Below, piece after piece: positions 2,512-20,833 of a DNA stretch of 21,195 nt. Under the pieces are notes generated by a model. It saw only the letters and a program-made list of their open reading frames with translations. It had not been told where the DNA came from and did not search any database. Source of the DNA: a virus; the IMG/VR virus record IMGVR_UViG_3300032245_001425, positions 1-21,195 of that record; one strand, written 5' to 3'. Position 1 is the stretch's first letter. The number at the start of each line of letters is the position of its first letter. The position numbers were made by a program, and so were the translations under genes.

Positions 2512-2541
2512 AATCCCCACTAAGTATTGTGGGGATTTTTT
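2512..2541 (+). terminator. Intrinsic terminator after the MGRPL gene, overlapping the next RBS
   Basis: AATCCCCAC (2512-2520) pairs perfectly with GTGGGGATT (2529-2537) across an 8-base loop, and T residues continue to 2541. The 9-bp stem with a T-run is a standard intrinsic terminator. The next gene's ATG is at 2542, immediately after the T-run. Confidence 0.85.
2531..2535 (+). promoter_or_regulatory. Ribosome binding site GGGGA embedded in the terminator's 3' arm
   Basis: GGGGA lies 6 bases before ATG 2542 and is the only Shine-Dalgarno-like sequence for that gene. When the terminator hairpin forms, this site is base-paired with CCCC of the 5' arm. It also argues for ATG 2542 as the start rather than the earlier TTG 2527. 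Confidence 0.55.
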
Positions 2542-4494: not shown

Positions 4495-5214
4495 ATGGCA
4501 ATCAACTACGTAAAAGGGCAAATACTTGCAGCCAATCTTGAAAGAGATGGCATCAACTTGTCCATTAGTAATGCCAATGTAGGAATCAACAAAGTGTCTC
4601 CCACAACTGCTCTTGACGTGGCTGGTGTTGTGACTGTGGGAAATATCAGCATTTCCAATGTGGCCAACATAAACATGGGCAACCGTTATATAAACAATTT
4701 AAGTACGCCAGTGTTGCCATCAGATGCTGTACCTAAATCTTACGTGGATTCTGCTACGGGTAATTCACTGGCTAACTTGAGGGTGGCCAATACTACAATT
4801 ACTACAGACGGTACCATTGGCAACATAACCATACAGCCTACTAGTACAGGGGTTGTAATAATCAACACCACCACAGGCTTGGTGGTACCTGTGGGTACAA
4901 CAGCACAACGTCCCAGCCCTGCTAGACAAGGCACAGTGCGATTCAATTCAGACAATTTGAGAATTGAAGTATACGATGGCACAGAATGGGACCAGATTGT
5001 CAGCGGTGTTACCAATCAAACATTCAACGGCGACGGGTCAACCACTACGTTTACACTGAATAGACAAACTACTACAGCGGCAGCATTGATCATGCTCAAC
5101 GGTGTTACACAGGTACCTGCAACTGCATACAACATGTCTCCAAATCCCAGCACCACATTAATTTTTACAGAAGCACCTGCATCCACAGACGTTGTAGACG
5201 TGCGATTCTTGTAA
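4495..5214 (+). CDS. Fibre-like structural protein with shared AQRP/GDGS modules
   Basis: A 239-aa protein. The N-terminal part (about 1-100) has a fibre-type GNISISNVANINMGNRYINN strand series and STPVLPSDAVPKSYVD, the 'A-x-K-x-YVD' linker common in phage tail fibres. This linker recurs in the giant fibre as NDAASKIYVDN. Residues about 128-168 are the PVGTTAQRP module with VRFNSD and EVYDGTEW. Residues about 175-239 are NQTFNGDGSTTTFTL, VTQVPATAY, FTEAPASTDVVDV. No catalytic motif is visible. A tail-fibre or fibre-connector role is likely. The start is ATG 4495 with GGGA at 4485-4488; a TAAATA element precedes it. It ends at TAA 5212-5214, and the following 82 bases contain a new promoter. 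Confidence 0.78.
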   Translation: MAINYVKGQILAANLERDGINLSISNANVGINKVSPTTALDVAGVVTVGNISISNVANINMGNRYINNLSTPVLPSDAVPKSYVDSATGNSLANLRVANTTITTDGTIGNITIQPTSTGVVIINTTTGLVVPVGTTAQRPSPARQGTVRFNSDNLRIEVYDGTEWDQIVSGVTNQTFNGDGSTTTFTLNRQTTTAAALIMLNGVTQVPATAYNMSPNPSTTLIFTEAPASTDVVDVRFL

Positions 5215-5296: not shown

Positions 5297-8200
5297 ATGG
5301 CCGTAACTAGAATCAAGAACAATCAGATAACAGATACAACTATTCAGGCAAACGCCAAAGTTGTACCCTACACCGTCACTGCTGGATTGTTGGCCAACAA
5401 TTTAGTTTATGGATCTGATTTGACAGTCACTGGTAATCTTACTGTACAAGGTACCAGTACCACAATTGACACCACAATTACCACCATTGAAGATCCTGTT
5501 ATTTTGTTGGCGTCAACACAAACAGGTTCTCCCTCAGTGGACATTGGATACATTGGACGTCGTGGTACATCTCCAAATATTGCCATGGTTTGGAAAGAAA
5601 GTGCGTCAGAATTTGTCACAGCATTCACTAGCACCGGTGAAACCAGCACCACAATCACTGTTACTGGTTACGCTAACCTCCACACCGGCAACGCCAACAT
5701 TGGCGGCAACATTGTAATCAATGGTACAACCAGCTTGGTTGGCAACTTGGCTTCAGCCAACGTCACTGGCAACATCAACGGCGGTAATTTGTTAACTGCC
5801 GGAATAGTCAGTGCCACTGCCAACATCACTGGCGGCAACGTCTTAACTGGTGGATTGATATCAGCCACTTCAACTATAACTTCGAGTGCTACCATAACTG
5901 GTGGCAACTTGGCCACAGGTGGTACCATAAGCGGCACAGGAAACATCACCGGCGGTAATGTATTGACTGGTGGTATCATGAGCTCAACTGGTAATGCCAC
6001 ACATGGCAATATCTTAACTGGTGGTATCATAAGTGGTACAGGCAACATCACAGGTGGTAATGTATTGACAGGTGGATTGGTGTCGGCTACGGGCAACGTT
6101 ACTTCAGCAGCCAATGTGTCAGGTGGCAACGTAGTCACTGGTGGTTTGATTTCGGCCACAGCCACTATAACTGGTGGTAACTTGGCCACAGGCGGTACAA
6201 TATCAGCCACTGCCAACATCACTGGTGGTAATGTACTCACAGGTGGCCTGATCTCGGCAACTGGCAACGTTTCTGGTGGCAATTTGATCACAACTGGCGC
6301 AGGCGGCAGCATCAGCGGATCAGGTAACATCACCGGAGGAAACATACTCACTGGTGGTGTTGTATCGGCTGCTGGCAATATCACATCCGGAGCCGGCAGT
6401 TTCTTCATAGGTAACGGTAGCCAACTAACTGGTGTAACTGCTACCAGTGCAGGATTTCCAGTGTCAGCTGGCACATCAAACATCAACGCCATCAGCAGTG
6501 GCAATATTTTTGTTGGCGTGGGTGGTACACCCAACGTCACAGTGTTTACTACAACTGGCGTCAGTGTAGCAGGAACTGTTGCAGCCAATGGTACCATAAC
6601 AGGTGGCAATCTAGCCACAGGCGGTACTGCTAGTGCAACAGGCAATATAACAGGTGGCAACTTGTTGACTGGCGGTGTAGCCAGTGCAGGCGGAAATGTC
6701 ACTGGTGCAAACATTGTCACAGGTGGTCAAGTCACAGCAACTGGATCTGTAATCGGCGGCAGCTTGTGGTCAAATGGCACAATCAGTGCGGTGGGCAATG
6801 CCATAGCTGGCAATGTCACAACCGCTGGGCAAGTCAGTGCCACAGCCAACATAACTGGTGGTAACTTGTTGACTGGTGGCTTGGTGTCGGCCACAGCCAA
6901 CATAACTGGTGGTAACTTGTTGACTGGTGGCTTGATATCAGCCACAAGCACAATAACATCAGGTGCCAATGTGATTGGCGGCAACCTGACCACAGCTGGT
7001 CAAGTGTCGGCCACGGCCAACGTCACTGGTGGCAATGTATTAACAGGTGGATTGATCAGTGCCACAGCCACTATTACAGGTGGTAACTTGGCCACTGGCG
7101 GAACAATATCAGGCACAGGCAATATCACAGGTGGCAATGTAAGTACCGCTGGGCAAGTGTCAGCCACAGCCAACGTTACTGGTGGTAATGTCTTAACCGG
7201 CGGATTGATTAGTGCTACAGCCACCATTACAGGTGGTAACTTGGCCACAGGTGGCACAGCGAGTGCTACTGGCAACATCACTGGAGGTAATGTCTTAACT
7301 GGTGGGTTGATGTCAGCCACTGGCAACATCACTGGAGCCAACTTAAATTCTGCACAACTTTATTCAAGCGGTGCATTGACTATTACCAATGCTTCAGGCA
7401 ACATTAACTTGACCCCAGCTGGCAACCTGGTGTTGAACAACAAGTACATAAATGGTGTAAGCCAGCCAGTCCAAGACAACGATGCGGCCAGCAAGATTTA
7501 TGTTGACAACTTGGTCAGCACACAAATTTCTTATCACCAAGCTGTGTCGGCAGCCACCACAACCACACTGGCTACTACAACTGGCGGTACAATCACATAT
7601 ACTCAACCCAACGGGGCAGCCAACGGTGTTGGCGCCTTGTTGACTACAACTGGTAGTTTCAACTTGATTGACACTGCCAACGTACAAACTGTGGGCATAC
7701 GTATCTTGGTCAAGAACGAAGCCAATGCAGTGTACAACGGTATATATACCTGGGCCAATGCTACCAACATTGTGCGTTCAACAGACGCAGACGAATATGG
7801 CGCTAACAGTATTACGCAACTGAGTCTCAACGATTACTTCTTTGTCACCAGCGGTAATGTCAATGCTGGATCAGCTTGGATTGTTGATGCTCCTTCGGGC
7901 ACAATCACATTTGGTACCAGCAATATCACATTTGCTCAGTTCAGCCAAAGCCAAGTTTACACTGCTGGCAACGGTGTCAGCATCAACGGCACAGTAATTT
8001 CAGCCAAGGTTGACAACAATACCACAGCATTTGACGGCGCAGGCAACATCATTGTCAAAGCCGGTGCTAATTTGACCACACCCAACATTGGTGCTGCCAC
8101 TGGTACCAGTGTCAGCGTAACTGGTACAGTATCAGGATCTTCTGTTGTGGGCGGTGTAATGACTGGTAGCAGTGTGAGTGTTACAGGCACAGTCACTGGT

Positions 8201-11200
8201 GCTTCAGTGGTTGGTGGCGTAATAACTGGTACCAGTGTCAGCGTTTCGGGTAACGTAACTGGTGGCAATGTAAACACTGGCGGCCAAGTGTCAGCCACAG
8301 CCAATGTCACAGGTGGCAATGTATTAACAGGTGGATTAATCAGCGCCACTTCAACAATAACATCAAGTGCCAACGTCACTGGTGGTAATATATTAACCGC
8401 TGGTATCATGAGCTCAACTGGCAATGCCACACATGGAAATATACTCACAGGTGGATTGATTTCAGCCACAGCCACTATAACTGGTGGCAACTTGGCCACA
8501 GGTGGCACCGCAAGCGCCACAGGCAACATCACTGGTGGCAACATACTCACAGCTGGCTTGATTTCAGCCACTGGCAACATCAGCACAGCCAACTCAGTAA
8601 TAGCCACAGGCGTTTCAGGAACTGGTGTCAGTGCTGGTATTTTTGGCAATGTGTCTAACGCACAAATACACGCCAATGCAATTTTGCAAGTGGCTGGCAA
8701 AACCCCCAACAGTTATGTGCAAATTGCGTTCCAGAACCTTAGTAACACTGCCAACGCTTCTACAGACCTAGCACTGTACAACGCTTCGGGCACAGACACT
8801 GCTTACTTCATTGACATGGGTATCACCAGCCCAACGTTCAATGGCACAAACTACGGGGCCAATGTTTACGGAGCCAATGACGGCTACTTGTACGTGGTTG
8901 GAAATTCACAGACTGGACCTTCGGGATCAGGCGCCAACATTGGCAACTTGGTCTTGGGTGCTACAACCGGCAAGATCATACAGTTCATTGGTAACCAATC
9001 AACCGACAACATTATAACCACAACCAGTTCAACTGGATTCACAGTAACCGGGGTGATGAGTGCCAGTGGCAACGTCACTGGTGGTAACATCTTAACAGGT
9101 GGCATTGTAAGCACAGTTGGCAACATCACCGCTGGCACAGCCGCAGCCGGATATGTGTTTGGTAATGCATATTACATGACTGGGCTCAGCGCAGCGGTCA
9201 GTGTGAGCAAAATTGTCAATGGTACCAGCTATGCCAACATTGCCAGTTCTAATGGCAACTTGGTAGTGGCAATTGGTGCCAGCAGCAACACAGTGGCCAC
9301 ATTCTATGATCAGGGAGTGAACTTTACTGGTCCAACCAGTGCATCAGGCAACGTCACTGGTGGCAACTTGTTGACAGGCGGATTGATGTCGGCCACTGGT
9401 AACATCACAGGTGGCAACTTGATATCGAGTGGCAACGTATTTGCCACAAGTGCAGCCAATGTTCAATTCAATGATAATACTTGGTTCTACAGTGGTTATA
9501 CCACAATGAACACCGGTGGTATCTTCCATGACACAGGTGCTAACCCAGATACAATTCAAGTCAGTACCAACAGTCGTAGCAACGGTATTGCAATGTGGAC
9601 CAACGGTGTTGCTAACAGTTACATCGTTTCTACTGGCGGCTTTGAGTTCTTCACAGGCGGAACATTAAGGGCCAACACTAACCCAACAGGCGGAACAAGC
9701 ACAGCTCAAATTACTTCATCTGGATTAACAGTCAGTGGTATTATCAGTGCCACAGCCAACGTCACTGGTGGCAATGTATTAACAGGCGGATTAATTTCAG
9801 CTACAAGTACAATAACTTCAAGTGCCAATGTGATTGGTGGTAACTTGACCACAACAGGACAAGTGTCAGCCACAGCCAATATAACTGGTGGCAATGTATT
9901 AACCGGTGGACTAATTTCGGCCACAGCCACTATTACAGGTGGTAACTTGGCCACAGGTGGTACAGCGTCAGCAACTGGCAACGTCACCGCTGGCAACTTG
10001 ATCACCGCTGGCAACTTGGTTGTGAATGGTGGCAACATCGACAGCAGCGCCAGTGCAATCACCATAAATGGTGCCAGTGCTGATGTGAACTTTGCAGTCA
10101 ACGGCGACACAACCACTGTGTTCTTTGTGGATGCTGGAACAGAAACAGCCAGTTTTGGTAATTCAACACAAGTAACCAATTCTATTGTTTCGTTCAATTC
10201 CACAAATTCAATCAAGATGCCAGTGGGCAACACAGCACAACGCCCAACAGGTGTAACAGGTCAACTGCGCTTCAACACAACAACCAACGGTTTGGAAGTG
10301 TTTGACAACAGTGCCTGGACAGCAGTGGGTACTCCGACATTTACTGTGATTTCAGATCAGCAGTTCAGTGGTGACGGCTCCACAGTGGCATTTACTTTGA
10401 GCACAGCATCAACCACAGCAGGTTCTGTGGTCAGTATCAACGGTGTGGTGCAGATTCCAACCACAGCATACAGTATTTCAAGTACCACACTGACATTTAC
10501 AGAAGCACCTGCTACTGGTGATCAAATTGACGTTAGAACATTCACTACAACTACATCAGTAACATCAATATCTAACAGTGCTGGCAATGCTGTTATCTCA
10601 ACTAGTGAAACCGCAGCTCAGATCAATGTTACTGGTAATTTGGTTCCCACTGCCAACGTGACTTACAACTTGGGTAGTTCAAGTCTTCGTTGGAAAGACG
10701 CTTACTTCTCTGGAACATCAATTACCTTGGGCAATGTGGTGATCAAGAACGTGGCTGGTGGAAACACTGTAGGCTTCTACGGTCCAGACGGCACAACACC
10801 AGCCAACATTGCTGCTTCCAGTGTTGATACCACACAAATCACCAGCGGCACCAGCAACATGTCTGTGGTGTCATCTAACGGTAACATCAGAGCCAACATT
10901 GCTGGCACCACTGTGATGACCATCAGCCCTGGCTTGGTAGACATTGTGGGCAACTTGACTGTGAGTGGAAACGCTACACTACAAGGCAACATTTTAGGCG
11001 ATAGAGTACAAAACGGTACAACCAGTATTGATATTCAAACCCCAAGCGGCAATGCCAATATCACTATTGGCGGAACCAGCAACGTGGCAGTGTTTACCAC
11101 AACAGGTGTAAACGTAACTGGGGTAATGAGTGCAAGTGGTAACGTCACAGGTGGCAACGTCTTAACAGGTGGATTGATATCTGCCACAGGTAATATCAAT

Positions 11201-11995
11201 GCCGGCAATCTAATCATAACTGGTGTATTGGTTGATAATACTGGTAACCTTGAGTTACAAAGTACAGCCACTAACGGCAACATTAATTTGACACCTAATG
11301 GTACTGGTATTGTTGGCATATCTACCTCACTCAGCGTCACAGGCAACATCACTGGTGGTAACGTGCTTGGCGGAGCCAATGTTAATGCCACAACACACAC
11401 AGGTACCACTGTTTCAGTTACTGCCAACGTCACTGGTGGTAACATCTTAACAGGTGGATTGATCAGTTCAACTGGTAATATAACTGGTGGCAATTTGACA
11501 GTGGGCACAGGTACTATCACCGGCGGTAATATTGTTAACTCAAATGCCAATGGTGTGGGCAACATTGGTAGCTCAACAGTTTACTACAACACTGTGTTTG
11601 CCAAGGCCACATCAGCTCAATACGCCGACTTGGCAGAAAAATACACAGCTGATGCAGAATACACACCAGGTACAGTTGTGAGTTTTGGCGGCTCAGCAGA
11701 AGTCACTGTGACCAGCACTGATGCAGATCGACGTGTGGCAGGTGTGGTATCTACCAATCCAAGTTATACCATGAACTCAGGCCTTCAAGGTGAACACGTG
11801 GTAACAGTGGCTCTAACAGGTCGTGTGCCAACACAGGTCATTGGCCTAGTACGCAAAGGTGACATGATGGTATCAGCAGGCGCAGGTCGAGCCAGAGCAG
11901 AAGCAGATCCCAAAGTGGGCACAGTGATTGGTAAAGCCTTGGAAGATTTCAACGGTGATGAAGGCGTGATCGAAGTTGTCGTAGGACGCTTCTAA
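5297..11995 (+). CDS. Giant repeat-rich tail fibre protein (2232 aa)
   Basis: The largest gene in the window; probably a homotrimeric fibre at the tail. The N-terminal module (about 35-115) has LTVTGNLTVQGTSTT and IGYIGRRG. Long arrays of a 17-residue repeat, consensus NITGGNVLTGGLISATx, fill about 159-680, 985-1098 and 1487-1570, with further scattered copies; I count about 45. Interspersed modules are NDAASKIYVDN (about 725), a 'RILVKNEANAVYNGIYTW' domain (about 745-900), a YVQIAFQNLSN domain (about 1130-1250), a FYSGYTTMN domain (about 1390-1480), PVGNTAQRP plus FSGDGST (about 1640-1750) and YNLGSSSLRWKD (about 1790). The C-terminal domain (about 2083-2232) has AQYADLAEKY, RVAGVVSTNP, ALTGRVP and GTVIGKALE. 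It is shared with the next fibre and known at the ends of cyanophage structural proteins. GGAG is 6 bases before ATG. No enzyme motif is seen. Confidence 0.88.
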   Translation: MAVTRIKNNQITDTTIQANAKVVPYTVTAGLLANNLVYGSDLTVTGNLTVQGTSTTIDTTITTIEDPVILLASTQTGSPSVDIGYIGRRGTSPNIAMVWKESASEFVTAFTSTGETSTTITVTGYANLHTGNANIGGNIVINGTTSLVGNLASANVTGNINGGNLLTAGIVSATANITGGNVLTGGLISATSTITSSATITGGNLATGGTISGTGNITGGNVLTGGIMSSTGNATHGNILTGGIISGTGNITGGNVLTGGLVSATGNVTSAANVSGGNVVTGGLISATATITGGNLATGGTISATANITGGNVLTGGLISATGNVSGGNLITTGAGGSISGSGNITGGNILTGGVVSAAGNITSGAGSFFIGNGSQLTGVTATSAGFPVSAGTSNINAISSGNIFVGVGGTPNVTVFTTTGVSVAGTVAANGTITGGNLATGGTASATGNITGGNLLTGGVASAGGNVTGANIVTGGQVTATGSVIGGSLWSNGTISAVGNAIAGNVTTAGQVSATANITGGNLLTGGLVSATANITGGNLLTGGLISATSTITSGANVIGGNLTTAGQVSATANVTGGNVLTGGLISATATITGGNLATGGTISGTGNITGGNVSTAGQVSATANVTGGNVLTGGLISATATITGGNLATGGTASATGNITGGNVLTGGLMSATGNITGANLNSAQLYSSGALTITNASGNINLTPAGNLVLNNKYINGVSQPVQDNDAASKIYVDNLVSTQISYHQAVSAATTTTLATTTGGTITYTQPNGAANGVGALLTTTGSFNLIDTANVQTVGIRILVKNEANAVYNGIYTWANATNIVRSTDADEYGANSITQLSLNDYFFVTSGNVNAGSAWIVDAPSGTITFGTSNITFAQFSQSQVYTAGNGVSINGTVISAKVDNNTTAFDGAGNIIVKAGANLTTPNIGAATGTSVSVTGTVSGSSVVGGVMTGSSVSVTGTVTGASVVGGVITGTSVSVSGNVTGGNVNTGGQVSATANVTGGNVLTGGLISATSTITSSANVTGGNILTAGIMSSTGNATHGNILTGGLISATATITGGNLATGGTASATGNITGGNILTAGLISATGNISTANSVIATGVSGTGVSAGIFGNVSNAQIHANAILQVAGKTPNSYVQIAFQNLSNTANASTDLALYNASGTDTAYFIDMGITSPTFNGTNYGANVYGANDGYLYVVGNSQTGPSGSGANIGNLVLGATTGKIIQFIGNQSTDNIITTTSSTGFTVTGVMSASGNVTGGNILTGGIVSTVGNITAGTAAAGYVFGNAYYMTGLSAAVSVSKIVNGTSYANIASSNGNLVVAIGASSNTVATFYDQGVNFTGPTSASGNVTGGNLLTGGLMSATGNITGGNLISSGNVFATSAANVQFNDNTWFYSGYTTMNTGGIFHDTGANPDTIQVSTNSRSNGIAMWTNGVANSYIVSTGGFEFFTGGTLRANTNPTGGTSTAQITSSGLTVSGIISATANVTGGNVLTGGLISATSTITSSANVIGGNLTTTGQVSATANITGGNVLTGGLISATATITGGNLATGGTASATGNVTAGNLITAGNLVVNGGNIDSSASAITINGASADVNFAVNGDTTTVFFVDAGTETASFGNSTQVTNSIVSFNSTNSIKMPVGNTAQRPTGVTGQLRFNTTTNGLEVFDNSAWTAVGTPTFTVISDQQFSGDGSTVAFTLSTASTTAGSVVSINGVVQIPTTAYSISSTTLTFTEAPATGDQIDVRTFTTTTSVTSISNSAGNAVISTSETAAQINVTGNLVPTANVTYNLGSSSLRWKDAYFSGTSITLGNVVIKNVAGGNTVGFYGPDGTTPANIAASSVDTTQITSGTSNMSVVSSNGNIRANIAGTTVMTISPGLVDIVGNLTVSGNATLQGNILGDRVQNGTTSIDIQTPSGNANITIGGTSNVAVFTTTGVNVTGVMSASGNVTGGNVLTGGLISATGNINAGNLIITGVLVDNTGNLELQSTATNGNINLTPNGTGIVGISTSLSVTGNITGGNVLGGANVNATTHTGTTVSVTANVTGGNILTGGLISSTGNITGGNLTVGTGTITGGNIVNSNANGVGNIGSSTVYYNTVFAKATSAQYADLAEKYTADAEYTPGTVVSFGGSAEVTVTSTDADRRVAGVVSTNPSYTMNSGLQGEHVVTVALTGRVPTQVIGLVRKGDMMVSAGAGRARAEADPKVGTVIGKALEDFNGDEGVIEVVVGRF
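5771..7344 (+). repeat. Main 51-bp/17-aa repeat array in the giant fibre
   Basis: About 25 consecutive or nearly consecutive units of the form N-[IV]-TGGN-[VLI]-x-TGG-x-[IVM]-S-x-T-x fill this stretch, interrupted near 6390-6590 by a non-repeat insert with FFIGNGSQLTG and VFTTTGVSV. The protein repeat is kept while synonymous bases vary. One pair (6848-6898 and 6899-6949) is identical over its first 36 bases. Asn and Gly at fixed spacing fit a beta-helix or beta-prism fibre shaft. Confidence 0.85.
8255..8590 (+). repeat. Second repeat array in the giant fibre
   Basis: Six or so 17-residue units continue after a short three-copy variant repeat at about 8100-8255 (TGTSVSVTGTVSGSSVVGG, TGSSVSVTGTVTGASVVGG, TGTSVSVSG). 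The unit with AGIMSSTG-NATHGN here (about 8385-8445) repeats one near 5955-6015 almost exactly at protein level. Confidence 0.8.
9758..10010 (+). repeat. Third repeat array in the giant fibre
   Basis: About five units run from AAC 9758 in the order LISATS-TITSSA, VIGGNLTTTGQ, VLTGGLISATA, NLATGGTASATG. That order matches blocks at about 6899-7140 of the same gene and, in part, 14553-14740 of the next gene. Confidence 0.8.
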
Positions 11996-12012
11996 CAACA
12001 ACGCTGCTTTAT

Positions 12013-12041
12013 GATAGGGTCCTTTGCGGCCCTATCTTTTT
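12013..12041 (+). terminator. Intrinsic terminator after the giant fibre gene
   Basis: GATAGGG (12013-12019) pairs with CCCTATC (12030-12036), with possible inner TC/GG pairs, and is followed by TTTTT (12037-12041). It lies 18 bases after the stop of the giant fibre gene and before the TAAATA element of the next transcript. Confidence 0.9.
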
Positions 12042-12042
12042 G

Positions 12043-12050
12043 GCTAAATA
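12043..12050 (+). promoter_or_regulatory. Late-promoter-like element GCTAAATA
   Basis: GCTAAATA, the same octamer as at 4468, directly follows the terminator and lies 21 bases before ATG 12072. Its position between a terminator and the next gene supports a promoter role even though it departs from TATAAATA at two positions. Confidence 0.5.
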
Positions 12051-12071
12051 TTAGATATTAATGGATCAACC

Positions 12072-15000
12072 ATGGGATTAACCAAGCCACGTGCCGCGCA
12101 GATTTACAATTTAGACTACAAGCAAGCCACTAGAGTGGTCACAGTTGCCAACATCACCTTGACTGGTGGTGCACCCGCTGTTGTGGACGGTGTAAGTCTC
12201 AGTACCAATGACCGTGTTTTGGTAACAGGGCAGTCAACTGCCAGTCAAAACGGTTTGTATTATGTGAGTACACTGGGTTCGGGCAACAACGGAACTTGGT
12301 CAAGAACCTCGGATGGCAACGAAACCGGCGAAATTGACGCTGGCATGATTGTCATGGTCACTGAAGGCTCAACCTATGCTGATACACAATGGAAATTGAT
12401 AACTGACAATCCTATTACCATTGGCAGCACTGCACTGGTTTTTACTCAAAATTACTATGCAAACAGCATCAACAGTGGTAGTAGCAATGTAACAGTATAC
12501 TCCAACGCCAATGTCACAATGAGCTCGGCTGGCACAGCCAATGTGTTAGCTGTGAGCTCAACAGGAACAGTGACTTCAGGCACAGCCAGCGTGAGCGGCA
12601 ACGTCACAGGTGGTAACGTATTAACTGGTGGATTGATATCTGCCACAGGCAACGTCACTGGCAACTATATCCTGGGCAATGGCGCATTGCTCACCGGGGT
12701 AATTACATCAGTGGCCAACATCAACAACGGCACCAGTAATGTCACTGTAGTGAGTTCAGGTGGCAACGTCACAGTGGGCATAGGTGGAACGTCAAATGTG
12801 GCTGTTTTTGCTACCTCAGGCGAGTACGTCACTGGTGTAATAAGTGCTTCGGGTAATGTCACAGGCGGAAACATTTTGACCAGTGGCCTGATTAGTGCTA
12901 CAGGTAATGTCACCGTTGGAAACATTTCTGCAACCATTGGTGCTTTTACAACATTTACTTCAGCACAAGGTGGTAATGTGACTGGCACATTGATTGCAAC
13001 ATCGTCTAATGCTCAGTTTTTCAATCAAACTAATGGTGCTGGATACTTCACAGTTGCTGGTTACTTGTCAGCAGTGGGCAACGTTACAGGTGGAAATTTA
13101 ATCACTGCTGCTGCGGTCAGCGCAGCATCAGTTAGTGCGTCGGGTAATGTCACTGGTGGTAACATCTTAACAGGTGGATTGATCAGTTCAACTGGTAATA
13201 TAACTGGGAATTATATCTTGGGCAATGGCAGTCAATTAACTGGCCTGCCAGCAACATATTCAAATACCAATGTCAGTTCTTTCCTGGCTGCATTTGGATC
13301 GAACACAATCAGTACCACCGGCACTGTAACAGCAGGCAACATCACTGGTGGCAATATATTAACCGTTGGTCAAGTCAGTGCTACTGGAACTATAACCACA
13401 GCTGGTGGTACCAACAGCACCGGTTTTGCAGTAGGCAATGGTGCAGTGTCAAACGTGGGCCTGGGATTCTTCCCAACAGCAGGAACCAGAGGTGACTATG
13501 CCATTCGTGACTATTCCAGTGTATTCAGTACCATGTATTTGGATGTGGGTATGGGCAGTTCTGCCGGCGGCGAATTTCAATTCAGATCATCAAACGCATT
13601 TTCTCTTGTAATGAGAGCCAATTCCTCAGGTGTTTATACGCCTGGGATAATGTCGGCCACCGGATCTGTTTATGGTCTTGAACTTTGGTCCACTAACAGT
13701 GTTGGCAGCGAAGGTGGACAGATCAATCTTGCATTGCCTGCGTCAGGCAGCACCATCAGCGGCGGTGTGATCATTGACGTTTACAACAACTTATTGCGTT
13801 TTTATGAGCGCTCTGGAACCAATCGTGGTGCATATATTGATTTAACCGCAACCTCGGCTGCTGTGGGCACAAACTTGTTGGCCAGTGGTGGCGGCGGCAC
13901 ACCCGGTGGATCAAACACTTATGTACAGTTCAATGACGGCGGCGCATTCGGAGGCAATGGACAGTTTGTGTACAATAAAACCACCAACACACTCACCGTT
14001 GGCAACGTAGCAGCCAACGCCAACGGCCAGGGCACAAACTTTATAGTTGGCGATGACGGATACATTGGTGATATCAACACTGCTGATACCATTGGTATCA
14101 AAGGCCAACAAAATGGTGCCAATGGATATATTGTGTTTGGCAATGCTGATTCAACTTCGAAACTTGGTCGTGCAGGTTCTGGTCCGCTGACCTATGCTGG
14201 CGCATTCAGTGCCACTGCCAACGTTACAGGTGGTAATATTTTAACAGGTGGATTGATATCTGCAACTGGCAACATCATAGGCAACAGAATTGCTGTTGCC
14301 GCAGGTACTGCTGCCGCACCATCTGTACAATTTTCAAATGACATTTCTGCTGACACTGGTTTTTATTGGGTCAGCGATGGCAATATTGGGGTCACAACCA
14401 ATGGCACACTAAGAGCAACCTTCCTGGACACTGGCGTCAGTGTTGTAGGCAACGTCACAGGTGGCAATGTATTAACTGGTGGATTGATCTCAGCAACTGC
14501 CAACGTCACAGGTGGCAATGTATTAACTGGTGGATTGATCTCAGCAACTGCCAACGTCACAGGTGGCAATGTATTAACTGGTGGATTGATATCTGCCACA
14601 TCAACTATTACTTCAGCAGCCAATGTGATTGGTGGTAATTTGACCACAGCTGGCCAAGTAAGTGCCACTGCTAATATCACCGGTGGTAATATCTTAACAG
14701 GTGGATTGATATCAGCAACTGCCAACATCACAGGCGGTAATTTGAATGCTGCTGGACTCAGCTTGTCTGGCAACGTAGTGTCAGCTTTGAATTCCACAGC
14801 CAACATTACCACAACTGCCAACATAAGTGGTGGTTTCATCCTGGGTAATGGTAGCCAATTGACTGGAATAACAGGCACATATGGCAATGCTAATGTGGCC
14901 ACATTCTTGGCGGCATTTGGTAGCAACACTATATCAACCACAGGCAATATCACCAGTGGCAACTTGATACAAGGCGGTGTACGAGTTTTCAAATGGACCA

Positions 15001-15668
15001 CTTCGGAAACTGCACCAGTTGGTCCCGTGCCCGGAGATCAATGGTTCATTGCCAGCACTGGCAAACGTTATGAATACTGGAATGATGGTACTGGCAATGC
15101 CTGGGTAGATCAAAGTCAGTCAACTTCGTTTGATGCCTTGGCAGTGTCTGGCGCTGCTACCATCAGCGGTTCTTTGACAGTTGGCACTTTGGCCATTGCA
15201 AATATAACCAATTCTGGTGCCAACGGCGTAGGCAACATTGGCAATTCTACTGGATATTTCAACACAATATTTGCCAAAGCCACGTCGGCTCAATACGCTG
15301 ACTTGGCAGAGAAATATATAGCTGACGCAGAATATCCATCAGGCACAGTGGTAATTTTTGGCGGCGATCAAGAAATCACAGTAAGTAATATCAGCCACGA
15401 CACAAGACTTGCTGGAGTGGTTTCCACAAATCCAGCATATTTGATGAACAGTGGAGAACAAGGACTGCCAGTGGCATTGACTGGTCGTGTACCGTGTCAA
15501 GTAAGAGGACCAGTGCAAAAAGGAGATGTTTTGGTAAACGTTGAACAAGGAATTGCAGGACGACTAGACCCGTCAAAAGCCACCTGGGGCTGTGTACTAG
15601 GTAAAAGTTTAGAAAATTATTCAGGCAACAGCATTGCCTTGATTGAAATAGCAGTGGGGAGATTTTAA
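12072..15668 (+). CDS. Second large tail fibre protein (1198 aa) sharing repeats and C-terminus with the giant fibre
   Basis: The N-terminal domain (about 15-135) contains NGLYYVSTLGSG, TWSRTSDGNETGEI and GMIVMVTEGS, a widespread phage tail-protein domain. A diverged copy lies inside the giant fibre at about 7530-7990. The 17-residue repeats follow from residue 177 and are dense at about 794-900. Other modules are ILGNGSQLTG with FLAAFGSNTISTTG (twice, about 390 and 920), GGSNTYVQFNDGG (about 610), SNDISADTGFYWVSDG (about 755) and TSETAPVGPVPGDQWF (about 975). The C-terminal domain (about 1050-1198) repeats that of the giant fibre: AQYADLAEKY, STNPAYLMNSG, ALTGRVP, VLGKSLEN, and an identical VGRF end. 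It is likely a trimeric fibre or part of the same fibre. The start is ATG 12072 with only a weak GGA upstream. The stop overlaps the next ATG (TAATG). Confidence 0.88.
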   Translation: MGLTKPRAAQIYNLDYKQATRVVTVANITLTGGAPAVVDGVSLSTNDRVLVTGQSTASQNGLYYVSTLGSGNNGTWSRTSDGNETGEIDAGMIVMVTEGSTYADTQWKLITDNPITIGSTALVFTQNYYANSINSGSSNVTVYSNANVTMSSAGTANVLAVSSTGTVTSGTASVSGNVTGGNVLTGGLISATGNVTGNYILGNGALLTGVITSVANINNGTSNVTVVSSGGNVTVGIGGTSNVAVFATSGEYVTGVISASGNVTGGNILTSGLISATGNVTVGNISATIGAFTTFTSAQGGNVTGTLIATSSNAQFFNQTNGAGYFTVAGYLSAVGNVTGGNLITAAAVSAASVSASGNVTGGNILTGGLISSTGNITGNYILGNGSQLTGLPATYSNTNVSSFLAAFGSNTISTTGTVTAGNITGGNILTVGQVSATGTITTAGGTNSTGFAVGNGAVSNVGLGFFPTAGTRGDYAIRDYSSVFSTMYLDVGMGSSAGGEFQFRSSNAFSLVMRANSSGVYTPGIMSATGSVYGLELWSTNSVGSEGGQINLALPASGSTISGGVIIDVYNNLLRFYERSGTNRGAYIDLTATSAAVGTNLLASGGGGTPGGSNTYVQFNDGGAFGGNGQFVYNKTTNTLTVGNVAANANGQGTNFIVGDDGYIGDINTADTIGIKGQQNGANGYIVFGNADSTSKLGRAGSGPLTYAGAFSATANVTGGNILTGGLISATGNIIGNRIAVAAGTAAAPSVQFSNDISADTGFYWVSDGNIGVTTNGTLRATFLDTGVSVVGNVTGGNVLTGGLISATANVTGGNVLTGGLISATANVTGGNVLTGGLISATSTITSAANVIGGNLTTAGQVSATANITGGNILTGGLISATANITGGNLNAAGLSLSGNVVSALNSTANITTTANISGGFILGNGSQLTGITGTYGNANVATFLAAFGSNTISTTGNITSGNLIQGGVRVFKWTTSETAPVGPVPGDQWFIASTGKRYEYWNDGTGNAWVDQSQSTSFDALAVSGAATISGSLTVGTLAIANITNSGANGVGNIGNSTGYFNTIFAKATSAQYADLAEKYIADAEYPSGTVVIFGGDQEITVSNISHDTRLAGVVSTNPAYLMNSGEQGLPVALTGRVPCQVRGPVQKGDVLVNVEQGIAGRLDPSKATWGCVLGKSLENYSGNSIALIEIAVGRF
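14451..14590 (+). repeat. Perfect 51-bp tandem repeat in the second large fibre
   Basis: Two exact 51-bp copies (14451-14501 and 14502-14552) and the first 38 bases of a third (14553-14590) stand in tandem, in frame, each coding 17 residues (NVTGGNVLTGGLISATA). The lack of synonymous differences, against clear divergence between other copies, points to recent duplication or gene conversion. Confidence 0.9.
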
Positions 15669-16009
15669 TGGCTTTTCCAACATCACCTACAAACGGTCAA
15701 ACCACCACACAGAATGGCCTGGTATATACCTGGAATTCAACACTGGGTGTTTGGGCACTGACCACGTCCACAACTGGCGCTATAAGTGCTACCAGCGTCA
15801 CTGCTACTGCCAACATCACAGGCGGAAATATCTTAACAAGTGGAGTAATATCTGCTACCGGCAACTTAACTTCAGGTGGTACAGTCAGTGTCACTGGCAA
15901 TGTCAACATAGGCAACGGCACAGGCGTAACCTGGGCCAATGCTGGTGGCGTTAGAGTGTGGACATACTATAACAATAGTACTTCAAGTTTAGATACACTG
16001 TTCTTGTAA
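15668..16009 (+). CDS. Small fibre-like protein with the shared 17-residue repeat
   Basis: A 113-aa protein. The N-terminal 30 residues (MAFPTSPTNGQTTTQNGLVY followed by WNSTLGVW) form a small beta module common at the start of phage fibre and appendage proteins. Residues about 50-75 carry two or three copies of the island's repeat (NITGGNILTSGVISATG). The end is short and ends WTYYNNSTSSLDTLFL. It may be an adaptor between the large fibres and the LamG protein that follows, or a remnant of a larger fibre; neither can be proven here. A strong GGGGAG at 15656-15661 lies before ATG 15668, whose A is the last base of the previous stop. TAA 16007-16009 abuts the next ATG. Confidence 0.72.
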   Translation: MAFPTSPTNGQTTTQNGLVYTWNSTLGVWALTTSTTGAISATSVTATANITGGNILTSGVISATGNLTSGGTVSVTGNVNIGNGTGVTWANAGGVRVWTYYNNSTSSLDTLFL

Positions 16010-17530
16010 ATGCCAATAGCCACACGATTTACCAATGCCGGGACACTGTTGGTCAATGGAAGTTTTGACGAAAATACTTCTATTGCTCCTGCTGAATTTA
16101 GCACCGCGGTAAACACAGTGTATGCTGGCACATTAGATGAAGTTACACTGGCATCCGGTGCCGCAGTGTTCAACGGCACCAGTCAATCTTTGAGCGTGGC
16201 ATCCAACGCAGTTTTTGCCGTAGGCACCGGTGATTTCACCGTTGAATGTTGGGTGTACCCACGGGCCAGCACCTCGCAGGCAATATTTGATTTGCGTAAT
16301 CCAAACACTGTCGGGGCCGGATTCGACATGTACATAAGCCCAACTGGTCCCAGTTTTCGGGTAGGAACAGCTGGTACTAACTATCTAACAAGCAATTTCT
16401 CAGGACTAAATCGATGGTATCATTTGGCCTTGTCAAGAAGCAGTAGCACATTCTCACTGTATGTAAATGGTACACTGGGGCAGACAGTTACAAACACTAG
16501 TAATTTCACCAACAGCACTCCCACGGTGGCTGGCGGCGTCAATGGATTTTTTAATGGTTACATCAGCAATTTTCGCTTTATCAAAGGCACAGGACTGTAC
16601 ACCGCCAATTTTACTCCATCACAAACAGTATTACCTGCTGTGTCGGGCACAAGTTTGTTGTTGAACACGTTGACCAGCGCAAACTTTACTACAGATACCA
16701 GTCCAAACGCATTCACAGTGACCAACAATGGAACAGCTACATATACCACAGCTAATCCATACATTCAAGGATCAACTACAATCAAACAACGCCAGTTCAT
16801 CGATGGCACACAGGAAGTGTACACACAATTTGATGAATTCACTGGCGCACCTGTGGTTGATGCCAATTTGATGGTCTGGGTAGACGCTGCTCAGACTGCC
16901 AGTTATTCTGGCTCAGGCACAACCTGGACAGATCTCAGTGGCAATGGTAAAACCTACACTTTGACCAACAGTCCAACTTTTAACAGCACCACCGGCGGCG
17001 GAGTCATAACATTTGCCGGAGCAAGCAGTCAATATGCTACTACAGCTGCCACACTGTTTAACTCTACCACAAGCAATGCCTATAGCATAAACATCTGGGT
17101 CTATCCCACAGGTGCTGGACAGATTGTATCAGTGGATGGTCAGACCACTCCCAACACTGCATATCATTACACTGCTATTGAAATTACTGCGGCAGGATTG
17201 ATATATTTTGGACAATGGACCGGCGCAATAAGTACTGTCGCCACCAGCGCTCAAAGTTTGAATGCTTGGTACAATTTGGTGATTACCTACAATGGTACCA
17301 CAGCCACTGCCTATGTAAATGGAACCACTGTGGGATCGTCAAATATCTCTTGGACAGCACCAGGAGCAAATACATTTTTTGCATTGATGTCAACTGACAG
17401 TACCAATATGTCTGGTGTTGCAGGATATGCCAGTGGCAGCGTGGGTGCATTCATGGTGTACAATCGTGCGTTAACTTCAGATGAAGTCACTTCGAACTTC
17501 AATGCATTACGTAATAGATACGGTAGATAA
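16010..17530 (+). CDS. Adhesin-like protein with two LamG/concanavalin A-like domains
   Basis: A 506-aa protein with two jelly-roll domains of the laminin G/LamG-like class. Domain 1 (about 55-240) has FNGTSQSLSVAS, DFTVECWVYPR, RWYHLALSRS and FSLYVNGTLGQ, then GYISNFRFIKGTGLY, the usual order in phage LamG proteins. Domain 2 (about 280-506) starts VWVDAAQTASYSGSG-x-TWTDLSGNG and has INIWVYPTG, AWYNLVITYNGTTATAYVNG and GSVGAFMVYNRALTSDE. LamG domains bind carbohydrates or proteins, so this is a likely host-surface-binding component of the tail fibre. It carries no 17-residue repeat, unlike its neighbours. ATG directly follows the previous stop and no Shine-Dalgarno is evident, suggesting coupling. 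No signal peptide is present, in keeping with a virion protein. Confidence 0.87.
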   Translation: MPIATRFTNAGTLLVNGSFDENTSIAPAEFSTAVNTVYAGTLDEVTLASGAAVFNGTSQSLSVASNAVFAVGTGDFTVECWVYPRASTSQAIFDLRNPNTVGAGFDMYISPTGPSFRVGTAGTNYLTSNFSGLNRWYHLALSRSSSTFSLYVNGTLGQTVTNTSNFTNSTPTVAGGVNGFFNGYISNFRFIKGTGLYTANFTPSQTVLPAVSGTSLLLNTLTSANFTTDTSPNAFTVTNNGTATYTTANPYIQGSTTIKQRQFIDGTQEVYTQFDEFTGAPVVDANLMVWVDAAQTASYSGSGTTWTDLSGNGKTYTLTNSPTFNSTTGGGVITFAGASSQYATTAATLFNSTTSNAYSINIWVYPTGAGQIVSVDGQTTPNTAYHYTAIEITAAGLIYFGQWTGAISTVATSAQSLNAWYNLVITYNGTTATAYVNGTTVGSSNISWTAPGANTFFALMSTDSTNMSGVAGYASGSVGAFMVYNRALTSDEVTSNFNALRNRYGR

Positions 17531-17535
17531 TTTAC

Positions 17536-17543
17536 GGTAAATA
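17536..17543 (+). promoter_or_regulatory. Possible late-promoter-like element GGTAAATA
   Basis: GGTAAATA ends only 7 bases before ATG 17551, too close for an ordinary leader, and the gene also lacks a Shine-Dalgarno. It may be chance in AT-rich spacer, or it may give a near-leaderless transcript. Confidence 0.2.
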
Positions 17544-17550
17544 TCAAACT

Positions 17551-18363
17551 ATGGCCAAACTCAACTCAGGAACAAGAATTTACGGCAACGTAACAATAGA
17601 TACGTTTGCAACCGTTACTGGCAACGTCACAGGTGGTAATGTACTCACTGCTGGTATAATGAGCTCAACTGGCAACATCACTGGTGGTAATATCAGCATT
17701 GGTGTAGCGGCTCCTACAGCAGTGTTAACAGTCAAAGCAGGTACCACGACAGCGGGTACTGCACCAATAAAACTAACTTCGGGCACAGTATTGACCACAG
17801 CTGAAGCTGGTGCAGTTGAATATGACGGCAGTTTCTTTTATGCAACACCACAGACCACAAACGGCCGTCAAGTAATTTCAACTCCAAGTTATTATGTGTT
17901 GAGTGCTGATGCGGCTGCGGTTGGCTCCACAATTGCCAACTTCTTCCCAGGTACCACAAGTATTCCACTGGTTGCATCTGGTGTGTATGAAGTTGAATTC
18001 AATTGTTGGTTCTTAAAAACCACAGCAGGAACCTTGGTGTGGACCTTGGTCAACTCAACTACAGTCACAAAATTGCATGCCGACATGCAAATGTCACCAA
18101 TTACTGGTGTCACCTCAACCAATGCGACCTCAGAACTATTTGCACAGGTTGCCAATCAAACAGCCGCATCAGTGGCCTTTGCTGCCACAGGTTCGTTGAC
18201 CACTGGTGTCAACCACTTTATGAGAATGAGAGCTTATCTAGTTAATGGTTCATCAACCAGTTTGCGATTGCAAGTGACCAACAGTGCAGGCACAGTGACA
18301 CCACTTGGTGGCAGCTACTGGCGAGCAACAAGAATTGCGTCAATTGGCACATTGGCTGCATAA
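17551..18363 (+). CDS. Fibre tip / receptor-binding-like protein
   Basis: A 270-aa protein. Residues about 22-52 carry two copies of the island repeat (NVTGGNVLTAGIMSSTG, NITGGNISIG). Residues about 52-95 are the module APTAVLTVKAGTTTAGTAPI followed by KLTSGTVLTTAEAGAVEYDG, commonly found upstream of phage fibre tips. The C-terminal part (about 105-270) looks like a beta sandwich, with YEVEFNCWFLKTTAGTLVW, MRMRAYLVNGSSTSLRLQV and GSYWRATRI. This layout (short stem, conserved linker, globular tip) suggests a trimeric tip that contacts the receptor. No ribosome binding site is obvious. TAA 18361-18363 is part of the TAAGGA that serves the next gene. Confidence 0.75.
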   Translation: MAKLNSGTRIYGNVTIDTFATVTGNVTGGNVLTAGIMSSTGNITGGNISIGVAAPTAVLTVKAGTTTAGTAPIKLTSGTVLTTAEAGAVEYDGSFFYATPQTTNGRQVISTPSYYVLSADAAAVGSTIANFFPGTTSIPLVASGVYEVEFNCWFLKTTAGTLVWTLVNSTTVTKLHADMQMSPITGVTSTNATSELFAQVANQTAASVAFAATGSLTTGVNHFMRMRAYLVNGSSTSLRLQVTNSAGTVTPLGGSYWRATRIASIGTLAA

Positions 18364-18372
18364 GGAAAAATA

Positions 18373-19035
18373 ATGCAAGCAAGATACAGAGCCGACTATG
18401 CTGGTGAATTTGTCATACATGAAACCAAGTGGACTGGCGGCAAAAAACTTGAGACCAGAGAATGGGTGGCTAATCCCATTACCAATCAGCATATTTCAGG
18501 ACGTGCAGTTTGCGTTGGCAGCACTGTGGATCAATACCTTTTTGATTACACTAGATTGCAAAGACATCGCGGTGGACTACTGAGTTCAAAAAAATTGCAA
18601 ACCTACGGTGTAGGCGACATTGCAAAACAAATGCGCCTGGACTTTGCTGTGGAAACAAACAACCAACAACTGCAAGATATTCTACAGTCAAATTATCAAA
18701 CAGACAATGTGGTATACACCAGTCCAAGACATTGCATTGCACACCCAGGTGAATTTTACTTGATTCCCTTGCGTCCTAATATAACTGACATGGCCACACT
18801 AATATACCTGGCTGCGTTTGATGGACACAAAGAAATATTTTTACTGGGCTATCATCGTGAAACTCCCAATGGCAGAATTGACTGGATTGATGAGATCACT
18901 GGGATATTTTACGCCTACCCCGGCGTGCAATTTTATCTAGTAGGCGAAGCAACCATCATGCCTGAGTCTTGGCTAAATTTGCCCAATGTGCAAACACAGA
19001 CTTATCAGGCCTGGATCAGTCACTGTGACATTTGA
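18373..19035 (+). CDS. Unrecognised protein; paralogue of 2542-3129
   Basis: A 220-aa protein of unknown function. The N-terminal 45 residues (basic, Trp/Glu-rich) are not present in the paralogue. The body starts ISGRAVCVGSTVDQYL, a strand plus Gly-turn comparable with VLGNGVSR at 2542. The C-terminal half holds IYLAAFDGHKEIFLLGYHRE (about 140-158), YPGVQFYLVGEATI and LPNVQTQTYQ, matching the DGH-x2-[IY]-x-LLG, YP-x-VQF and PN-x-Q series of the paralogue. It is soluble, with no signal or membrane segment. The start is ATG 18373, with AAGGA 18362-18366 upstream. The stop is TGA, unlike most genes here. Its last 16 bases overlap the end of the convergent NUDIX gene. A modifying enzyme or fibre-assembly factor is possible. 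The second is supported only by its place at the end of the fibre cluster. Confidence 0.78.
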   Translation: MQARYRADYAGEFVIHETKWTGGKKLETREWVANPITNQHISGRAVCVGSTVDQYLFDYTRLQRHRGGLLSSKKLQTYGVGDIAKQMRLDFAVETNNQQLQDILQSNYQTDNVVYTSPRHCIAHPGEFYLIPLRPNITDMATLIYLAAFDGHKEIFLLGYHRETPNGRIDWIDEITGIFYAYPGVQFYLVGEATIMPESWLNLPNVQTQTYQAWISHCDI

Positions 19036-19460
19036 ACACTGTGTTCCATCACAGCAATTTTGTCTTTGACTGCGTCAAAATTCACAGTTGACCATAATCC
19101 AGGATGCATGGGTTTGGGCCAGGTGCCTGATGCAATCCAGGCCCAGCCATGATGCTCGTGATTGAGCCGCGGTATAAATTCACTGGCCACACTGCAAAAA
19201 AATGTGTGATATGCAAATTTTAAATCAGCTGTGGTAAATTTTTCCAAAGGCACCAATTTTAAGTAATCAGGCATGGCACCCAATTCTTCCTGGCATTCAC
19301 GCACAATTGATTCTATTAGAGTTTCCTCAGCTTCCACTCTGCCTCCTGGCAGTCCCCAGGTATCGGGATGTTTGGTATCAGTGCGCATCAAATAAAGATA
19401 TGATCCGGTGTCAATGGCGTAGAACCAAACACCCACAGCATTTACAACACTAGACTCCAT
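19020..19460 (-). CDS. NUDIX hydrolase
   Basis: A 146-aa protein with a complete Nudix box at residues 40-62: G, then E at 46, then REC-x-EELG at 54-61 (GX5EX7REUXEEXGU). The box residues bind the divalent metal and hydrolyse a nucleoside diphosphate linked to another moiety. WGLPGGRVEAEETL starts the box, and FAYHTFFCSV and HHGWAWI are typical later strands of small Nudix proteins. The substrate cannot be read; nucleotide sugars, (d)NTPs and alarmones are all possible. ATG 19460 is preferred because GGGAGG lies 3 bases upstream; an in-frame ATG at 19514 has no such site. The start lies 19 bases inside the gp15-like gene, so translation is probably coupled with tail genes. The 3' end overlaps the convergent gene by 16 bases with no terminator between. 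Confidence 0.9.
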   Translation of the reverse strand: MESSVVNAVGVWFYAIDTGSYLYLMRTDTKHPDTWGLPGGRVEAEETLIESIVRECQEELGAMPDYLKLVPLEKFTTADLKFAYHTFFCSVASEFIPRLNHEHHGWAWIASGTWPKPMHPGLWSTVNFDAVKDKIAVMEHSVQMSQ

Positions 19461-20833
19461 GTGCCTCCCTGATACAATCCTTGATAACTTTTGACCCAAC
19501 TGTTGCCAGTCCATTCGTACTGTATTTCTGTCGTGATGTTTGTGACATACTGTTGATTGCCTGGACTTGATGTGCTGTCAAACGACACTGTCCATCTGGA
19601 TCCATCATACTCCACAATATCATTGGCTTGAGCCACCAATGGTTGTCCATTGACTCCTGCCCAGGCTTCGGCATTGCCGTTGTCGTAAGTGCCAGTTGCT
19701 TCAGTAAACAAGTATCGTTGGCCTATTGAAGCGGCTGGTAATCCAGCACCAGGTCCACTGCGCAACGGATCAATGACAGCGTTCACAGCAGACAAAGTAT
19801 TACCGGGTACTGTGTCTATGTCCACAGTGAACAGTAAGAATCTGTCATCAGTGGGATCATATGCCACTGTGCCCACAACGTTTGTACCATCTTCTTGTTC
19901 AAGATTGACCAAGCTCACGCCAGGTCGTAACACACCATACACGCCAATCAGCGAATGCCATAGCAAATTGCTGTCAGGAGAATCCGGAGGTGTCAAACTG
20001 GTATTGGGTTCATCTATCACTTGTGCTGATCTCAATGCCTGCAGTTTGTTGCCAATCAGCAAGACCTGGTAGTTGTAAGGAGTAAACACTTGTCGTGTGC
20101 CCATCAACAAGTCGTTGTTCAGTATGGCGTTTGATGCATCGCCTTGTGCGTCGAATATTGATGCCACAATGCGTTCCACCACACCCAATTTTTTGACCTT
20201 GGCTGGCGAACTGATCCAAATTGGAACATTGAAAGTCAGTGTGGCCACATCGATAGGGTCTTCTGTGCCCACTGGTATGGTTTTACTGCTCCACTGTGTG
20301 CTGACCAATTCACATACTGTCAAACTGGTCCAATCAATGTAGTTGTCTGTGCTTTGTATTTCTAAACTGGGGTTAAACAACACCAGGATCTGTTCCAGCA
20401 GTTGCATTTTTTGATTGGTGTTTGATGTCCAAATTTCCAGCTTGATCGTGAGTTTGTATGGCACTGGCATCAAGCGTTCAATAGTAAATGCATTGCCTTG
20501 TGTGGTTTCATAACTGTCAGTGTTTGAGTCGTAGGTTCGTTGACGCACTTGAATGTTGCTGACAAAATACGGCTCCTGCATTCGGGGACGATCATAATCC
20601 AGCCCACTGACAAAAAACGTCATCAACGGGGTTGACGGCATGTCGTTGGCAGAATTGTTCTGCAAAATTGTCTGTGCTTGACGACTGCTGTCACCATAGC
20701 GTACAGGCACACGTACTAGAGTATCATTCTTTCCACTTTGATTGCGTCCGTACTCTACATCAAAGTTGCTGAAAATTCTAGCAAACTGCAATAGAAAACG
20801 TCGAATTTGCCCGTCATAAAAAAATTGTGCCAT
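19442..20833 (-). CDS. 15: Proximal tail sheath stabilisation protein, gp15-like
   Basis: A 463-aa protein. In T4, gp15 caps the tail and sheath and joins the tail to the neck. The first about 250 residues follow the T4 gp15 plan: FFYDGQIRRFLLQFARIFSN at the N-terminus (T4: FYNSSFRRYATLMGDLFSN), RVPVRYGD, PVPYKLTIKLEIWTSNTNQK and LLEQILVLFNPSLE (T4: VEQILPYFQPHF). These matches are from memory of the family. T4 gp15 is about 270 residues, so the extra C-terminal part (about 300-463) is an extension. It has GQRYLFTEATG, ANDIVEYDGSRWTVSFDS and YEWTGNSWVKSYQG, and I recall similar tails in cyanophage gp15 proteins. The upstream AGGA is 8 bases before ATG, and the gp14-like stop is 2 bases upstream, so the two form an operon with the NUDIX gene. 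Confidence 0.82.
   Translation of the reverse strand: MAQFFYDGQIRRFLLQFARIFSNFDVEYGRNQSGKNDTLVRVPVRYGDSSRQAQTILQNNSANDMPSTPLMTFFVSGLDYDRPRMQEPYFVSNIQVRQRTYDSNTDSYETTQGNAFTIERLMPVPYKLTIKLEIWTSNTNQKMQLLEQILVLFNPSLEIQSTDNYIDWTSLTVCELVSTQWSSKTIPVGTEDPIDVATLTFNVPIWISSPAKVKKLGVVERIVASIFDAQGDASNAILNNDLLMGTRQVFTPYNYQVLLIGNKLQALRSAQVIDEPNTSLTPPDSPDSNLLWHSLIGVYGVLRPGVSLVNLEQEDGTNVVGTVAYDPTDDRFLLFTVDIDTVPGNTLSAVNAVIDPLRSGPGAGLPAASIGQRYLFTEATGTYDNGNAEAWAGVNGQPLVAQANDIVEYDGSRWTVSFDSTSSPGNQQYVTNITTEIQYEWTGNSWVKSYQGLYQGGTWSLVL
19464..19469 (-). promoter_or_regulatory. Ribosome binding site deciding the NUDIX start
   Basis: On the minus strand GGGAGG lies 3 bases before ATG 19460, within the last codons of the gp15-like gene. 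It supports the shorter 146-aa start over the 164-aa alternative at 19514. Confidence 0.75.

Follow-up and report, generated by a model that had tools for sequence, protein, structure and literature searches.

Introduction

Among the described systems closest to the fibre proteins analysed here is the pre-neck appendage protein gp12 of Bacillus phage phi29 (PF11962; structures 3SUC and 3GQH), which has a C-terminal domain of the same fold and in which the Asp692/Glu695 pair at the cut aligns with the Asp and Glu of their motif YADLAE. The two kinds of protein differ in their body, since that of gp12 is a pectate-lyase-like tailspike, whereas the proteins described below carry a repeat shaft. 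Phage intramolecular chaperones have been reported to accompany triple beta-helices (PMC8326128, PMC4690869). In isolated phages, the closest relatives are structural proteins of PA5oct (YP_010678855.1, recorded as virion structural protein with the note ESI-MS/MS) and of Agrobacterium phage Atu_ph07 (AUZ94958.1), which share the C-terminal domain with YADLAE but are 478 and 607 aa long, start with other N-termini, and show no 17-residue repeat in their sequences. The repeat itself is reminiscent of FapA and of bactofilins (the bactofilin structure 2N3D has a Foldseek TM of 0.46-0.52 to the array model), although these are cellular proteins and not fibres. Two further likenesses come from collections of viral proteins: phrog_18536, a PHROGs family of function unknown, matches 28 of 44 array segments (best 1.3e-5), and the BFVD entry A0A6J5QQ29 resembles the array with 49% identity and a TM of 0.78, the array-like proteins of BFVD being uncharacterised and derived from uncultured Caudovirales. 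Literature searches returned no description of this 17-residue repeat. The fibres are built of parts of known kinds; the 17-residue building block itself is undescribed.

Results

The window is a complete IMG/VR virus record of 21,195 nucleotides. Its left end codes for the C-terminal part of a T4-like major head protein (phrog_138), and on the minus strand of its right part lie the genes of a Nudix protein and of the tail-sheath completion protein (phrog_11196). Between the end of the head protein gene and the tail-sheath completion gene lies the fibre cluster. Among isolates, the tail-sheath completion protein is matched best, at ~35-36% identity, by the jumbo phages Atu_ph07, Phosso and the PA5oct group, and L011, a syntenic relative, is part of a 352,754-bp contig. 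Based on these genes, the jumbo-phage matches and the L011 contig, the window represents part of a large T4-like myovirus without a close isolate, and a nucleotide search of isolate phages gave no match. The source was probably a jumbo phage, and the closest matches and the contig sources suggest an aquatic one.

The Nudix gene (19020-19514) overlaps the tail-sheath completion gene (19442-20833), both on the minus strand; the pair is likewise adjacent in L011 and L014, and several phages of the PA5oct group have an annotated Nudix gene under the tail-sheath-completion match. Between the head protein gene and the fibre genes, a minus-strand ORF (397-1569) encodes a TPR protein that weakly matches glycosyltransferase-9 (1.4e-4, just under the curated cut-off). 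L009, L010 and L012 have similar minus-strand proteins at this place, and no such ORF is found in L011. Judged from its sequence, this glycosyltransferase-like protein is a candidate modifier of the Thr/Ser/Asn-rich fibres. Small conserved proteins (2527-3129, with a weak MptE-like match, and 18373-19035) flank the fibre genes in relatives, and both hold similar I-[FY]-LLG-[YF] stretches. The 239-aa protein encoded at 4495-5214 starts like the 780-861-aa fibres that precede the main fibre gene in L010 and L011, is far shorter than these and has no unit.

The ORFs of the fibre cluster were confirmed at the positions from which the sequence-only reading had started (Table 1), and the 2232-aa protein has syntenic homologues in L009, L010, L011 and L014. 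That reading had proposed that one 17-residue unit is spread over four neighbouring genes, with about 45 copies in the 2232-aa protein, many in the 1198-aa protein, some in the small proteins at 15668 and 17551, and none in the LamG gene (16010) between them. The unit has the consensus N-[IV]-T-G-G-N-[VLI]-x-T-G-G-x-[VI]-S-A-T-G. A position-weight profile derived from the window counts 42 and 13 non-overlapping copies for the two long proteins, 1 and 2 for the small ones and 0 for the LamG protein, in agreement with the proposal, and likewise 0 for the fibre-like genes upstream of 5297. The literal consensus used earlier has 16 matches in the 2232-aa and 7 in the 1198-aa protein; in 200 shuffles it had 0 matches, and the profile essentially none. 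As the 113-aa and 270-aa proteins hold only one and two units, the mention of four genes is true but concerns mainly two. The start-to-start spacing is most often 17 (26 of 41 in the 2232-aa protein), then 23, and the share of sequence covered by units is 32% in the 2232-aa protein and 18% in the 1198-aa protein.

Table 1. Features of the fibre cluster in the window
Feature	Position	Strand	Description
2232-aa fibre protein	5297..11995	+	N-terminal module MAVTRIKNNQITD, 42 units in several arrays, other domains between, C-terminal Peptidase_G2-like domain
Repeat region 1 of 2232-aa protein	5771..7375	+	25 units, residues 159-693, break at about residues 361-432
Repeat region 2 of 2232-aa protein	8252..8575	+	6 units
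Repeat region 3 of 2232-aa protein	9758..10030	+	5 units
62-bp tract, 2232-aa gene	11426..11487	+	98.4% identical to 13146..13207
C-terminal domain of 2232-aa protein	11504..11992	+	phi29 gp12 C-terminal (Peptidase_G2) fold
Predicted cut in 2232-aa protein	immediately before Asp2111, about 11627	+	
1198-aa fibre protein	12072..15668	+	different N-terminal module, 13 units, C-terminal domain shared with 2232-aa protein
62-bp tract partner, 1198-aa gene	13146..13207	+	98.4% identical to 11426..11487
51-bp tandem array	14450..14590	+	2.8 copies, 100% matches
C-terminal domain of 1198-aa protein	15177..15665	+	Peptidase_G2-like family of 2232-aa protein, by alignment
113-aa protein	15668..16009	+	one unit (15812-15862)
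LamG/concanavalin-like lectin protein	16010..17530	+	no unit
270-aa protein	17551..18363	+	two units (17623-17724) and a further C-terminal part

The N-terminal module of the 1198-aa protein matches PHROGs named head decoration and virion structural protein, plus one named tail fiber. The 113-aa protein begins with MAFPTSPTNGQ, similarly to full fibre genes in L027, L048 and L118; the form MAFPxSPTNGQ is common to full-length fibres of 632-2445 aa, and the 113-aa protein is without the C-terminal domain. It could represent a fibre gene that was shortened or broken up.

A DNA pattern that spans one and a half units matches the window 18 times and its shuffles not at all. In IMG/VR the pattern occurs in at least 120 stretches and, among the matches listed, 107 of 120 hold three or more profile units and 46 of 120 have units in two or more ORFs, the stretch counts being lower bounds and the shares valid for the retrieved sample. 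The unit therefore recurs in uncultured phages, which is what the earlier proposal of a profile search in viral metagenomes was aimed at. The same pattern has 84 matches in 84,980 bacterial and archaeal species genomes, none of them with a profile unit, and a cellular origin of the repeat was rejected on this ground. The main fibre of the syntenic relatives holds 26 (L009), 54 (L010) and 46 (L011) units, with fibres of up to 3166 aa (L011), and in L014 both termini are kept in a 2032-aa protein in which a different, VTGATTLSSTLG-like repeat replaces the unit. The expectation that close relatives carry the unit in several genes was borne out in L010 (three genes) and L011 (two) but not in L009 (one) or L014 (none); sharing of the unit by several genes of one phage is common, yet not universal. 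A tblastn search of isolate phages with the array alone returned only weak matches in Pseudomonas syringae phages (E 0.1 or worse). Pfam gave no fibre-repeat family for the 2232-aa protein, the 1198-aa protein or the arrays, the sole fibre-type match being the T7 tail N-domain PF03906, below cut-off and outside the arrays, and a PDB sequence search with both proteins and the array profile found no usable relative.

The anatomy of the unit was derived from 1804 units in the loci of the viral scan, among the matches listed. Val, Ile or Leu occupies position 2 in 93%, position 7 in 100% and position 13 in 88% of these, Asn6 rounds to 100%, and Gly is the commonest residue at positions 4, 5, 10, 11 and 17. 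About 98% of the unit consists of eight residues (G, T, N, A, V, I, L and S), and charged residues account for about 1%. The hydrophobic spacing of 5-6-6 is the pattern of three short strands per turn. In accordance with the beta shaft, rather than disordered chain, that had been anticipated, AlphaFold2 modelled the seven-unit run 7019-7375 (single chain, 44 sequences) as a beta-solenoid with a mean pLDDT of 96.1 and a pTM of 0.88, four of five models being above 95. AlphaFold2 is reported to yield confident beta-solenoids for meaningless repeats as well, one of them rich in T/S/G/I/V (PMC11795689), and consequently a pLDDT of 96 is weak on its own and has to be discounted.

Two lines are independent of AlphaFold2, namely the permutation result with FapA and the periodicity of the spacings. 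The Pfam FapA beta-solenoid family is found in 15 of 44 array segments, with a best value of 5e-5, and one segment matches bactofilin, marginally (0.056); these FapA matches come from relatives, the seven-unit run of the window itself having no Pfam match. Arrays with permuted unit positions match FapA in 0 of 10 cases, a difference with a one-sided Fisher value of about 0.03 that is to be read in the light of related segments and a small control. Inter-unit spacings cluster at 17, 22-23, 27-29, 33-34, 38-40, 44-45, 49-50 and 54-55, with a period of 5.3-5.5 residues (404 distinct inserts; R 0.45 vs a 99.9% null of 0.20) that persists at 5.5 in 95 dissimilar inserts left after clustering (R 0.378 vs a 99.9% null of 0.352), and the V/I/L autocorrelation of the unit-free L014 protein peaks at 6 and 12. 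Judged by this clustering and these peaks, the building step is one strand of about 5.5 residues and not the whole 17-mer. A fold search with the array model gave no PDB match at E 0.001, and a kinship with the left-handed helices of acyltransferases was rejected (Z 12-16, but rmsd near 11).

The sequence-only reading had also held that copy number sets fibre length. In fact, among 46 complete ORFs with the C-terminal domain and units, about 50 residues are gained per unit instead of 17, protein length outside the units rises with unit number (rank correlation 0.87), and the L014 protein attains its full length, with both ends, without any 17-mer. The number of repeats does vary among relatives, as had been foreseen, but length does not simply follow: copy number alone does not set it, and given the gain per unit and the growing non-unit part, shafts grow by mixed modules, of which the 17-mer is one.

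The claim that the protein motif is kept while synonymous bases vary stands, as 30% of inter-unit codon pairs are identical, 37% synonymous and 34% non-synonymous. Synonymous codon identity is about 0.45 within a gene of the window, close to the 0.40-0.47 for units of different phages, and the DNA behind the repeat is accordingly old. Most matches between the two big genes are 75-80% identical, vs 98.4% for the 62-bp tract, which marks a recent exchange between these paralogues. Ongoing slippage as the chief source of copy number was rejected, since neighbouring units are not clearly more alike than distant ones (permutation p 0.16, 0.38, 0.46 and 0.94; 0.036 in L011). Despite this result one exact tandem array is present, and its 51-bp period and perfect copies point to a recent tandem duplication.

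Both big proteins end in one and the same domain, with which 52 complete ORFs of the window and the sampled loci terminate. PF11962 (Peptidase_G2) matches 24 of 56 homologous C-terminal domains (E up to 1, best 2.4e-8) but not the domain of the window alone; 47 of the 56 match phrog_19602, which is annotated tail fiber. A PDB search with the domain profile retrieved no phage fibre, the best match (0.0066) being an unrelated short stretch. The AlphaFold2 model of the domain has a mean pLDDT of 84, with values of at least 90 for residues 41 to 160 (ten-residue blocks). Its best Foldseek matches are head proteins of HFTV1, Pam3, phi29 (gp8.5) and BB1, and it is similar to capsid decoration and head-fibre base proteins as well (Z 8-13). 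In a second-look alignment the C-terminal fragment of phi29 gp12 (3GQH) ranks first, with Z 14.7 and 2.3 A over 109 residues, followed by 3SUC. The first pair aligned with 3GQH joins model residue 42 to chain residue 692. Accordingly, SDFAE at 691-695 of phi29 corresponds to A-D-L-A-E in the family of the window (YADLAE), whose D and E are present in all 56 domains. A phi29-gp12-type chaperone fold is well supported, and from the conserved site a self-cut before the Asp of YADLAE is likely, though not certain; as Ser691 of phi29 is replaced by Ala in 56 of 56 relatives, cleavage may be altered or lost. The L011 contig (G001) has at least three more ORFs with the domain (31745-32230, 172897-173499 and 234492-234848), two of which are far from the fibre cluster.

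Discussion

The best explanation of these results, which we regard as probable, is that the proteins are repeat-shaft fibres with a triangular beta-helix unit and a phi29-gp12-type C-terminal chaperone. Each 17-mer would form one turn of the helix, with strands of 5, 6 and 6 residues that each direct one V/I/L inward and turns made of Gly and Asn, and the arrays, broken by other small domains, would be shaft stretches of the long virion fibres of a T4-like aquatic phage, fibres that presumably bind a receptor. Three chains would align at their C-terminal chaperones, most likely giving a trimer, whereupon the shaft would zip up as a triangular beta-helix and the Peptidase_G2 intramolecular chaperone would release itself by a cut immediately ahead of the invariant Asp of YADLAE. 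The differing N-terminal modules may dock different members of the set onto the virion, and one shaft module would serve several paralogous fibre genes, between which it may now and then be exchanged or duplicated. The structural fibre shaft suggested earlier thus gains from a predicted beta-solenoid in place of disorder, from the FapA matches and from a C-terminal phage fibre maturation domain, while the simple length rule attached to it is lost.

Within this fibre model, separate solenoids compete with an intertwined triple beta-helix, in which three chains wrap around each other, each supplying every third strand, so that a 17-mer is a full turn per chain rising three layers. We hold this version to be a serious possibility, if somewhat less likely than not. 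Inserts in single-strand steps are easily accommodated by it, given that threefold symmetry keeps the faces equivalent for any number of strands, whereas an extra strand turns a single-chain three-sided solenoid by 120 degrees; the replacement repeat of L014, with about 12 residues and two strands, and the reported pairing of phage chaperones with triple beta-helices (PMC8326128, PMC4690869) point the same way. On the other hand, the confident AlphaFold2 model is single-chain, the likeness to FapA and bactofilin points to single-chain solenoids, and the near-invariant Asn6 fits an Asn ladder across stacked turns of one chain. At 4.8 A per layer of beta-helix, the two versions differ in size, a shaft of 42 units being about 20 nm long as a single-chain solenoid and about 60 nm if intertwined. 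A wider variant, to which we give only about one chance in four, sees here an undescribed architecture that combines a strand-quantised beta-helix shaft growing by strands of 5-6 residues, sharing among paralogues by recombination and possible surface decoration by the 397-1569 product.

Other readings would place the proteins elsewhere or deny them a shaft. Head fibres decorating the capsid, with the C-terminal domain binding the capsid as a base in the manner of phi29 gp8.5 or of the HFTV1, Pam3 and BB1 decoration proteins, would agree with the top Foldseek matches of this domain, with the PHROG matches of the 1198-aa N-terminal module (one tail fiber among them) and with the major head protein gene that adjoins the fibre genes. 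We nevertheless consider them unlikely, because the second-look alignment puts phi29 gp12 first (Z 14.7 vs 12.9 and lower), Pfam gives Peptidase_G2 and the D and E of the cleavage site are invariant, lectin and tail-sheath genes are neighbours too, and the tail-fiber family phrog_19602 covers most of the domains. Still further down in probability, and in our opinion hardly credible, is a low-complexity flexible or disordered linker with an artefactual AlphaFold2 fold: the restricted composition of the unit and the AlphaFold2 bias (PMC11795689) would suit it, but it does not account for a regular V/I/L triad with 5-6-6 spacing, for inserts quantised by strand, for constraint at the protein level amid much synonymous change, or for the loss of FapA matches upon permutation of positions.

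The repeat-shaft fibres described here reveal a recurrent building block, found only in viral contigs among the matches listed, of some of the longest proteins of uncultured aquatic phages, and this block is tied to a chaperone domain with a testable self-cleavage. One strand per step provides a simple rule for the gain and loss of fibre shaft length, so that both the evolution of fibre length and the question of single-chain versus intertwined shafts become testable, and the 17-residue motif can be used as a marker for these fibres in metagenomes.
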